Source: Candidatus Poribacteria bacterium
GTDB taxonomy: Bacteria > Poribacteria > WGA-4E > WGA-3G
Assembly (NCBI GenBank): GCA_958295945.1
Contig: OY282386.1
Span: 3,094,204-3,158,203, forward strand
Direction: 5' to 3'
Length of the DNA stretch: 64,000 nt
The notes under the pieces were generated by a model. The model saw nothing but the letters and a program-made list of their open reading frames with translations, made no database searches and had not been told where the DNA came from. Made by a program: the position numbers and the translations under genes. Below, piece by piece: positions 877 through 13,023 of this stretch; the first letter of the stretch is position 1; each line of letters begins with the position of its first letter.

Positions 877-1240
877 TATATTATACTATAGTTTGGACAA
901 TTTTTGTTCAGTGGAAGTTGAGTCTTCAACGGAGAAACTATTTTCAGCGAGTTTCCCATATCGGGGGAACCCCACGAAAAATGCTGCACTCCAGTGGAGT
1001 GCTATGTTTATAGAAACGTTATGGCATATTCTCGCACTCCAGCGGAGTGCTATGTGTTAATTCATACATACCGCTCCGCTGGAGCGGGGAGGTTGTTCCA
1101 TACTGTGGCTATAAACATATTGCTCCGCTGGAGCAAAGAGCGTTTGGGTATTGTGTCAGAATTGGGTAACAGATGTCGTCCAACAAATTTCTTGTCCTAA
1201 ACTCACGTATGAAAATTGTCCAAAGTATAGTATATTATAA
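877..1240. mobile_element. 364-bp element bounded by about 24-bp inverted repeats, nested in the 345-1370 element
   Basis: The left end (about 877-905) contains ACTATAGTTTGGACAATTTT. The right end (1211-1240) is its inverted counterpart with ACTATACTTTGGACAATTTT; over the best 24 bases only two differ. No open frame of transposase type is inside. The interior is the four-hairpin array at 986-1136. The TATAGT...GGACAATT end resembles one end of the 119-bp element at 1707-1825, suggesting related mobilising enzymes (inference). Confidence 0.6.
986..1136. repeat. Four-hairpin array, two direct plus two inverted units (copy 1)
   Basis: Four self-complementary 17-mers centred on CTCCAGYGGAG or its inverse lie at 986-1002, 1034-1050, 1071-1087 and 1120-1136. 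The first two read forward, the last two inverted. The outer pair is each followed (read outward to inward) by a TATGTTTATAG tail (1003-1013 and, inverted, 1109-1119). The array at 9945-10120 has a different palindrome but the same order and the same tail. No coding frame fits. Confidence 0.75.
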
Positions 1241-9868: not shown

Positions 9869-9944
9869 GCACAGTTGTCCGTCGGGTAGAGCGTTAGCGA
9901 AACCTATAGGTGTGCAGTTAAGGAATATATGAATATGAGAAATG

Positions 9945-10120
9945 CTCTTTAGTCCCGTCCGGACGATATGTTTATAGGTGTCCGTTTGTCCCCCCTCCTC
10001 TTTAGTTCTGTCCGAACGATATGTTGTCCGTTGCGGCTAGTACAAACATATCGTCCGGACGGGACTAAAGAACGGTGTTTCATGCAGGATCTATAAACAT
10101 ATCGTCCAGATGGGACTAAA
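9945..10120. repeat. Four-hairpin array, two direct plus two inverted units (copy 2)
   Basis: Units run CTCTTTAGTCCCGTCCGGAC... at 9945-9977 and CTCTTTAGTTCTGTCCGAAC... at 9999-10027 forward, then inverted at 10042-10070 and 10091-10120. Each has a short palindromic core (CGTCCGGACG in two copies). The outer units end in ATATGTTTATAG, as in the array at 986-1136, though the palindrome itself differs. No open frame. The 9540-10431 interval holds only such repeats and no gene was found in it. Confidence 0.75.
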
Positions 10121-10240
10121 TATGGGACAATCCCAATAACAATGGGGACTGAGAAGGTTCATAGTCCGACAACCGTTTTCTTAAGTGGACACCTAATGAA
10201 CTTTGACGTTCAAGTTGTGTCCTCGTCCGGGCGAGGTTTC

Positions 10241-10398
10241 TACGCCCGATAGACAGAAACAGACAAAACAAGCGGGTTGGGAGACCCAACCCCTACGCGG
10301 ACAGGACCGATTTTGGTGGTCTCTACGCCCGATAAACAAAAACAGACAAAACAAGCGGGTTGGGAGACCCAACCCCTACGCGGACAGGACCGATTTTG
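10241..10398. repeat. 75-bp tandem duplication with a GGGTTGGGAGACCCAACCC hairpin
   Basis: Positions 10241-10315 and 10324-10398 are near-identical (two base differences noted), period 83 bp. Each contains a perfect hairpin GGGTTGG/CCAACCC and ends GGACAGGACCGATTTTG. The second unit ends about 15 bp before the folA ribosome site, so the hairpins lie in or near the folA leader. Confidence 0.8.
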
Positions 10399-11651: not shown

Positions 11652-11681
11652 TAAAATAACTTTGAAAGGACAATTGCCCAT
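11617..11681 (+). promoter_or_regulatory. Stem-loop covering the transposase ribosome site
   Basis: TGGGCAAATGTCCT (11617-11630) pairs with AGGACAATTGCCCA (11667-11680), 13 of 14 positions. The 3' arm includes part of GAAAGGA and the A of the start codon at 11680. Transcripts entering from the ThuA-like gene would contain both arms and hide the start; transcripts starting inside the IS after the 5' arm would not. Such protection is known for IS10 and IS50. Confidence 0.6.
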
Positions 11682-13023
11682 GCAAGTAATTATAGCACTT
11701 TTTGCAGTTTTTGCACCACATATATCTGCAACGACAGGACGCCAATTATCATGTGTTGTCCTCGCAGTGCTTGCGATGACAGGACGGGTCACCATGTTAA
11801 ATATCTCTCGTTGGACATCAAAAGGCGGTAGCTACCGCACACTTCAACGCTTTTTCAACACGGTGCTGCCTTGGCCGACCCTCTTCTGGGTGTTTTTTCG
11901 CACACACCTGCTTGATCGTGAAAGCGAATATATCATCGTAGGAGACGAAACAATCAAGCCCAAAACGGGTTCAAAGACTTTTGGTTTAGACCGTTTCTTT
12001 TCTTCAACACATGGCAAAGCGATCCCAAGTTTGTCATTCTTAGCCGTGTCCTTAGTGAGTGTCAATGAACGGCGTTCTTATCCAATGGCTATAGAACAAA
12101 TCGTCCGAGATGACACATCATCGACTTCAGCTGCCAAACAAGATGCTACCCCAAAGGACCCCTTGAAACGCCCGCGTGGACGCCCAAAAGGGAGCAAAAA
12201 CCGAGATAAAACCGATGTCGTGATTATCGGTGTTTTGAAACAACTTCAAATTATGATCAAAACGCTACTGTCAAAAGTCGGAGGTGCGATCCAACTCCGG
12301 TATTTAGTGCTTGATGGATATTTTGGACATAATAACGGAGGACAAATGACAAGACAATGTGATCTCCATCTCATCTCAAAACTTCGCTCGGATGCCGCAC
12401 TGTTTTGGCAACCGACAGACGAAAAAGAAGGCCCCGGACGCCCACGGCTCTACGGGGAAAGGTTCAACCCACAACAGATTGATCCGAAATATCGCATCTC
12501 TATCCAAACCGATGGAAATATCAGAACCGACATCTATCAAGGACACCTGCGAAACCAAAAGTTCCCAGAACTTCTAAACGTCGTTTGCCTCCTCAAGACA
12601 AACTTGAAAACAAAAAAGCAATCACACATCCTATTGTTTAGTTCTGATTTAGCATTAGACGCAGAAAAGATGATTGACTATTATTCCCTTCGTTTCCAAA
12701 TCGAGTTCAACTTCCGGGATGCGAAACAATATTGGGGATTGCAAGATGCTATGAATGTCAACAAAGAACCCGTGAACACTGCAGCAAATCTATCAATGTT
12801 TATGATCCATGTCAGTGCGAAACTCATGGAAAAGGACAGATGTCAGAATCCCGAATATAGTGTATTAGATCTCAAATCGCGCTACCGAGGGCTGAAATAT
12901 GTGCATGAAACATTAAAAATGCTTCCGCAAAAACCTGAACCAATTGTTATTCAGCAAATCACTGAACATCTGGGTTCAATCGGTGCTATTCATCACACAC
13001 AACCCAATCTTAACCCAGGATAA
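11680..13023 (+). CDS. Transposase, IS4/IS701-type DDE enzyme
   Basis: 447 aa from the ATG at 11680, preceded by GAAAGGA. DDE residues are in IIVGDETIKPK (Asp89), YLVLDGYFG (Asp212) and the signature Y335-x2-R338-x3-E342-x6-K349 (YSLRFQIEFNFRDAK), which matches the IS4-family Y(2)R(3)E(6)K pattern exactly. A basic RPRGRPKGSKN segment at about 165-175 is AT-hook-like. The frame is complete and the stop abuts the right inverted repeat. It could also act on the shorter repeats that share its terminal sequence. Confidence 0.93.
   Translation: MQVIIALFAVFAPHISATTGRQLSCVVLAVLAMTGRVTMLNISRWTSKGGSYRTLQRFFNTVLPWPTLFWVFFRTHLLDRESEYIIVGDETIKPKTGSKTFGLDRFFSSTHGKAIPSLSFLAVSLVSVNERRSYPMAIEQIVRDDTSSTSAAKQDATPKDPLKRPRGRPKGSKNRDKTDVVIIGVLKQLQIMIKTLLSKVGGAIQLRYLVLDGYFGHNNGGQMTRQCDLHLISKLRSDAALFWQPTDEKEGPGRPRLYGERFNPQQIDPKYRISIQTDGNIRTDIYQGHLRNQKFPELLNVVCLLKTNLKTKKQSHILLFSSDLALDAEKMIDYYSLRFQIEFNFRDAKQYWGLQDAMNVNKEPVNTAANLSMFMIHVSAKLMEKDRCQNPEYSVLDLKSRYRGLKYVHETLKMLPQKPEPIVIQQITEHLGSIGAIHHTQPNLNPG

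Follow-up and report, generated by a model that had tools for sequence, protein, structure and literature searches.

Four-hairpin arrays in a Candidatus Poribacteria genome: probable gene-less members of a Y1 transposon family with doubled hairpin ends

Introduction

In a Candidatus Poribacteria genome four short hairpins lie side by side, two in forward (F) and two in inverted (I) orientation. What sort of entity is such an array, and what keeps its plan constant while its stems change? The transposases (TnpA) of IS200/IS605 elements and of REPs bind folded single strands in a strand-specific manner and cut them with a tyrosine (PMC8266576). Here we ask whether the array belongs among the DNAs on which enzymes of this kind act. 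"The window" denotes the whole 64-kb stretch of the genome that was analysed; positions up to 64,000 are those of the window, and larger ones those of the genome.

Results

Two arrays with a single plan

Direct reading of 986-1136 gives four hairpins in forward-forward-inverted-inverted (FFII) order, just as an earlier note on this DNA had described. A second array, which the same note placed near 9945-10120 and credited with the same plan and another palindrome, is indeed present, with limits at 9952-10116. The units are as follows.

Array 1 (read from the sequence; covariance-model scores in brackets)
986-1013, + strand: U1, outer forward; hairpin GCACTCCAGTGGAGTGC (986-1002), tail TATGTTTATAG (1003-1013) (34.6 bits)
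1034-1055, + strand: U2, inner forward; hairpin GCACTCCAGCGGAGTGC (1034-1050), short tail TATGT (1051-1055) (16.3 bits)
1066-1087, - strand: U3, inner inverted; hairpin CCGCTCCAGCGGAGCGG (1071-1087), short tail TATGT (1066-1070) (17.9 bits)
1109-1136, - strand: U4, outer inverted; hairpin TTGCTCCAGCGGAGCAA (1120-1136), tail TATGTTTATAG (1109-1119) (35.3 bits)

Array 2
9952-9977, + strand: outer forward unit GTCCCGTCCGGAC, tail TATGTTTATAG (evidence includes the covariance model)
10005-10024, + strand: inner forward unit GTTCTGTCCGAAC, short tail TATGT (aligned copies agree in position and plan)
10040-10065, - strand: inner inverted unit, tail TATGTTTGTAC (evidence includes the covariance model)
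10091-10116, - strand: outer inverted unit, tail TATGTTTATAG (evidence includes the covariance model)

In array 1 the full tail TATGTTTATAG is confined to the outer units, the inner ones carrying TATGT alone. All four occurrences of the core CTCCAGYGGAG in the window lie within array 1; shuffles predict 0.02. Array 2 keeps the plan with different stems, and the covariance model of the unit detects four of four units in array 1 and three of four in array 2. Units 1/4 and 2/3 had been taken for inverted copies of one another; the copies are not exact, and stems differ inside one array (GCACTCC, CCGCTCC, TTGCTCC). Folded as single-stranded DNA, array 1 reaches -41.7 kcal/mol (z = -7.3): in this fold U1 and U4 each make a hairpin of their own, with their 11-nt tails paired to each other, and U2 and U3 join in a single long inner stem.

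A dispersed family with an orientation rule

The tail TATGTTTATAG has 84 exact sites genome-wide, compared to 11 for a reversed-sequence control. In most cases a hairpin stands before the tail at a constant distance, the kinds of stem including GCTCC, GTCCC and ACTCC. Like a REP, then, the short hairpin has many copies between genes and also flanks a Y1 gene. Single palindromes scattered at random, the outcome that would have told against the earlier note, were not what was seen.

Pairing was counted in 60 stretches of 13-20 kb plus the window (about one-fifth of the genome), the stretches having been picked for holding units, and the counts are therefore not genome-wide rates: outer units form 26 F-to-I pairs, spanning 111-247 bp, as against 2 I-to-F pairs within 1 kb. 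The sole F-to-I pair of 260-1000 bp in these stretches measures 724 bp – and encloses a transposase gene. A different arrangement is seen at G000:C1:2842495-2842668 (L097), where four forward outer units, each with the full TATGTTTATAG, stand in tandem with a 49-bp period; this is not an FFII array.

A Y1 transposase gene between the hairpins

A profile search with PF01797 found one gene above cut-off in the genome (approximately C1:1609674-1610153; Y1, HUH, IS200-like), and it stands in the order F, F, gene, I, I. Some 120 bp from this array there is a second one, F, F, I, I, that has no gene. On both sides the gene-bearing and gene-less arrays are alike over the segment bounded by the outer hairpin base and the inner tail; comparison of these two neighbours revealed no clear likeness outside the outer hairpins or in the middle. 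Such a pair with matching ends is direct evidence that the four-hairpin array is the gene-bearing element reduced to its ends; the window array is accordingly taken to be a non-autonomous Y1 transposon made up of ends alone.

The encoded TnpA has 158-159 aa and, in an alignment of 12 homologues, the motifs DHIH, WQ and YIRNQENHH. A profile search matches it to the solved TnpA of ISDra2 and IS608; the predicted structure is of moderate quality, with a mean pLDDT of 78.6. Against NF033573, the NCBIfam IS200/IS605 model, the protein scores 72.9 bits (cut-off 55) and passes; against the RAYT model NF047646 it scores 32.5 bits (cut-off 80) and fails, and where RAYTs (TnpA-REP, class 2) have the motif Y---NP it reads YIRNQ. 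Compared by motifs alone with Table 1 of PMC6006769, the protein matches TnpAY1 subclass 1.2.

Homologues, geometry and covariation

Homologues of the gene in many related genomes are flanked by like hairpin units. A scan of GTDB genomes yielded 80 homologous loci, in Poribacteria, Flavobacterium, other Bacteroidota, Verrucomicrobia, KSB1, Neomarinimicrobiota and others. The association between unit and gene is close: a correctly oriented outer unit lies within 300 bp of the gene in 61 of 78 left and 55 of 78 right flanks, as against 0-3 of 71-76 flanks at 1 kb or more. Units in the wrong orientation also occur near the gene (17-21 of 78), extra copies are present at many loci, and about 25% of gene flanks have no unit under a strict definition. 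Bernardetia, which stood outside the set used to build the model, again has four units around the gene, in the order F, F, gene, I, I. At four loci of classical IS200/IS605 type no unit lay beside the gene.

The consensus common to the phyla is A-GYYCC-NNN-GGRRC-GA-NATRTYT-RTAG-AA. An outer unit comprises a 5-bp hairpin, nine bases and then the 3′ foot [AG]TAG, a geometry that is constant across phyla. Stems of outer units run to 5-8 bp, inner units retain the hairpin, usually without the full tail, and the spacing from outer to inner unit peaks at 50-51 bp. Because the list behind the consensus had been selected for paired stems, covariation was assessed on sites located by the tail alone. 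A perfect 5-bp stem stands at the predicted offset in 107 of these 154 sites, in 16 different stem sequences; shifted offsets give 0-2. The stems thus covary, and four-hairpin arrays that keep the plan while their stems change are common; the structure is constrained, as the earlier note had suggested.

Units were counted with a covariance model of the outer unit, about 150 candidates being scored per genome, so that high counts are lower bounds. On this basis Poribacteria genomes with a close tnpA homologue hold 79-152 units each (the high counts again as lower bounds) and Flavobacterium genomes 3-118; the same model found none in five genomes lacking a close homologue. Many units are nonetheless present in G002, G003, G004, G014 and G015 although these have no close tnpA homologue, which requires either loss of the gene, with the units outliving it, or incomplete assemblies. 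The number of tnpA copies is low in most genomes. Several copies occur in G005, G011, G032 and G034, and broken genes in several relatives.

Arrays of the form FoFiIiIo are found in many copies in Flavobacterium, with the plan and span seen in Poribacteria, and for one of them there are dozens of dispersed matches about 150 bp long. Across 18 array ends taken from a single Flavobacterium genome, conservation becomes strong at the AA preceding the outer stem, with a weaker T-rich stretch directly outside; the boundary of the unit is therefore the outer hairpin in both phyla. Another higher-order arrangement in Flavobacterium (L239, G046:C5:449300-450200) consists of three inverted outer units spaced at about 180 bp.

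A second layer: carriers with terminal inverted repeats

Both arrays of the window lie inside MITEs with terminal inverted repeats (TIRs):

885-1231, no strand assigned: T1 TIR-MITE, 347 bp, terminal repeats ACTATAGTTTGGACAATTTT; carries array 1
878-884, no strand assigned: left copy of the T1 target duplication, ATATTAT (7 bp)
1232-1238, no strand assigned: right copy of the T1 target duplication, ATATTAT (7 bp)
9907-10195, no strand assigned: T3 TIR-MITE, terminal repeats TAGGTGT..CTTAAG / CTTAAG..ACACCTA; carries array 2

A 364-bp element with terminal inverted repeats of its own had been noticed around array 1. The element is real; its size is 347 bp, the larger figure taking in flanking bases. 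It forms a separate layer, a DDE-type MITE that carries the array. At 885-1231 the combination of TIRs and target duplication belongs to the carrier and not to the FFII array. Outer terminal inverted repeats are significant for the arrays of the window, at 512 kb, 1619 kb, 2465 kb and 3730 kb, and for others; they are not significant for those at 1610413, 4570677, 4131003 and 1190433, nor in Flavobacterium. Since TIR-less arrays exist, the TIRs lie outside the basic array unit.

The genome contains ten full-length copies of the T1 MITE, that of the window included, the other nine being 96-99% identical. At least four TIR-MITE families (T1, T2, T3 and T4 among them) bear hairpin pairs or arrays, and unrelated MITEs have nothing but the array in common. 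On the simplest reading Y1 arrays landed in MITEs repeatedly and were then copied along with them; the ten near-identical T1 copies, array 1 among them, would on the same reading have spread via the T1 TIRs rather than through TnpA. One class of transposon, the TIR-MITE, is thus seen repeatedly to carry the ends of another.

Several further observations concern these carriers. Between 800 and 1368 the T1 MITE is nested within another repeat family, whose flanks (800-885 and 1230-1368) are joined in about 20 copies elsewhere, that is, empty sites for the T1 insertion. F-F pairs alone – half-arrays – occur in another MITE family with TIR TAACGASTTGTGC (G000:C1, at 157651, 449313, 737380, 3193966, 3376149 and 4240060). 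Two candidate empty sites for arrays were rejected: T4 MITEs without an array share only the TIRs with array-bearing T4, and the element at 2750666 resembles an internal deletion.

Discussion

The array very probably belongs, as a non-autonomous member without a gene, to a family of Y1/HUH transposons that have at either end a pair of hairpins spaced at about 50 bp. A complete element would be F-F-[tnpA]-I-I, and the form in the window F-F-I-I. Most likely the TnpA of about 158 aa would recognise the folded units in single-stranded DNA, and its tyrosine would cut near the [AG]TAG foot; the outer hairpin and foot could then serve as the site of recognition and cleavage, and the inner hairpin as a second binding site. 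By analogy with TnpA-REP, which is thought to do the same for REPINs, TnpA would most likely mobilise the DNA between the outer hairpins. It is possible that the arrays pass through single-strand intermediates and are mobile at the present day. Poribacteria and Flavobacterium orthologues yielded no site, resolved to the base, from which a TIR-less array is missing, and transposition of the array is thus something that we infer. Candidates considered were the orthologues upstream of dfrA in 11 Poribacteria genomes, too diverged outside the coding sequence (and the array there lies in a MITE), and the Flavobacterium orthologues of one array, which were occupied or rearranged.

Could the arrays be mere internal filler of TIR-MITEs, spread wholly by DDE transposases acting on the TIRs? 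The location of array 1 in T1, a MITE that has 7-bp target duplications and is present ten times in near-identical form, speaks for this, as does that of array 2 in T3 and of further arrays in T2 and T4. But the arrays without an outer terminal repeat, which include the gene-adjacent one and those of Flavobacterium, refute it as a full account; moreover, the array alone is common to unrelated MITEs, and its plan encloses a Y1 gene across phyla. We consider it highly improbable that the family as a whole arose in this way, while for the amplification of the T1 copies the explanation stands. A role of the hairpins as RNA – a small RNA, terminator or mRNA-stability element kept by selection on RNA structure – would accord with the strong fold and the covarying stems, and known REPs have taken on such functions. 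Yet it leaves unexplained the symmetric FFII order, the conserved unpaired [AG]TAG foot and the specific flanking of one transposase gene, and no Rfam family reached threshold, the search giving sub-threshold microRNA matches to inverted repeats and nothing more. We find an RNA role scarcely credible; the evidence favours the DNA ends of a transposon of a Y1/HUH transposase over the small RNAs suggested by the earlier note, which put forward no mechanism.

There is also some chance, albeit a small one, that TnpA has been domesticated: it would then serve the host, no longer transpose, and find its recognition sites in the units. The low copy number of the gene in most genomes, which PMC6006769 reports for subclass 1.2, would fit, and domestication has been argued for RAYTs (PMC6006769, PMC8266576). 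Against it, dispersed units and a gene-less copy adjoining the gene look like mobile DNA, and the gene is broken in several relatives and multiplied in G005, G011, G032 and G034.

Taken as ends of a Y1 transposon, the arrays invite comparison with REPs, REPINs and their RAYTs (TnpA-REP, class 2). Shared features are short dispersed hairpins, a conserved tetranucleotide foot, inverted pairs, a single-copy Y1 transposase gene flanked by the repeats, and gene-less copies that are many where gene copies are few. The foot, however, is placed differently: here [AG]TAG lies nine bases 3′ of the stem, whereas the REP foot GT[AG]G stands directly 5′, and just 1 of 128 outer units has GT[AG]G 0-2 nt 5′ of the hairpin, so that these are not canonical GTAG REPs. 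Inverted outer pairs are present as in a REPIN, but the unit has four hairpins, two in tandem at each end (hence F-F-I-I), and a different foot. The transposase, too, differs from RAYTs in being of class 1 (Y---Q) and under the RAYT model cut-off. IS200/IS605 elements (TnpAY1 subclass 1.1) share a closely related Y1 transposase (PF01797, NF033573) and subterminal hairpins; they have one hairpin per end, both on the same strand, whereas the ends described here are inverted and doubled, and no tnpB was seen. To our knowledge no described HUH element has a doubled hairpin at each end. TIR-MITEs of DDE transposases carry the window arrays and have TIRs and, for T1, 7-bp target duplications, but no TIR belongs to the FFII array itself, which is found also free of MITEs. 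TIRYT elements (PMC3733652) likewise hold a Y1 gene between inverted repeats, but their long TIRs with GGGGWSAS and their subclass 2.1 protein are both absent here. CGTC-tagged REPs (PMC3733652) were rejected as a match: their stems are 8-9 bp long, their foot is CGTC, and they lack a transposase.

Subclass 1.2 was described (Quentin 2018, PMC6006769) by the motifs DH[IV]H, WQ and Y-I-x-N-Q-x-x-HH (Y---Q--HH), a length of about 148-150 aa, a conserved C-terminal stretch, low copy number and occurrence in Bacteroidetes, without REP sequences and generally without IS200-type ends. Our homologues resemble it in DH[IV]H, WQ, Y-I-x-N-Q-x-x-HH, a length of about 150 aa, low copy number and presence in Bacteroidetes; in contrast to the published account, units flank most of them, and their range extends to Poribacteria, Verrucomicrobia and others. 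The REP search rule of that study called for a GT[AG]G foot (5′) and stems no shorter than 7 bp, and units of the present kind could therefore have been missed. Our own search, confined to open-access papers, found no earlier report of these units. The four-hairpin elements are a new type of bacterial REP-like repeat.

These elements supply a candidate substrate for a Y1 subclass reported to lack cognate repeats or IS properties, and the fixed, simple geometry of the unit makes it directly testable in vitro. REP-like gene-less elements extend beyond the GTAG-type RAYTs to Poribacteria, Flavobacterium, other Bacteroidota and Verrucomicrobia, where they may number about 100 units per genome. On a broader proposal we judge the odds to be even: that TnpAY1 subclass 1.2 and its double-hairpin, 3′-foot ends make up a separate cross-phylum HUH lineage, distinct from IS200/IS605 and RAYT/REPIN, with two tandem hairpins per end for synapsis, cleavage at [AG]TAG on the 3′ side, a dominant gene-less four-hairpin form and up to about 150 units per genome.

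Other features of the window

Two direct 81-bp copies, 96% identical and akin to a dispersed repeat, lie upstream of dfrA at 10235-10398. At 11662-13023 there is a DDE_5 / IS701-like transposase gene (453 aa, under NCBIfam cut-offs), possibly representing a new IS701-type group.
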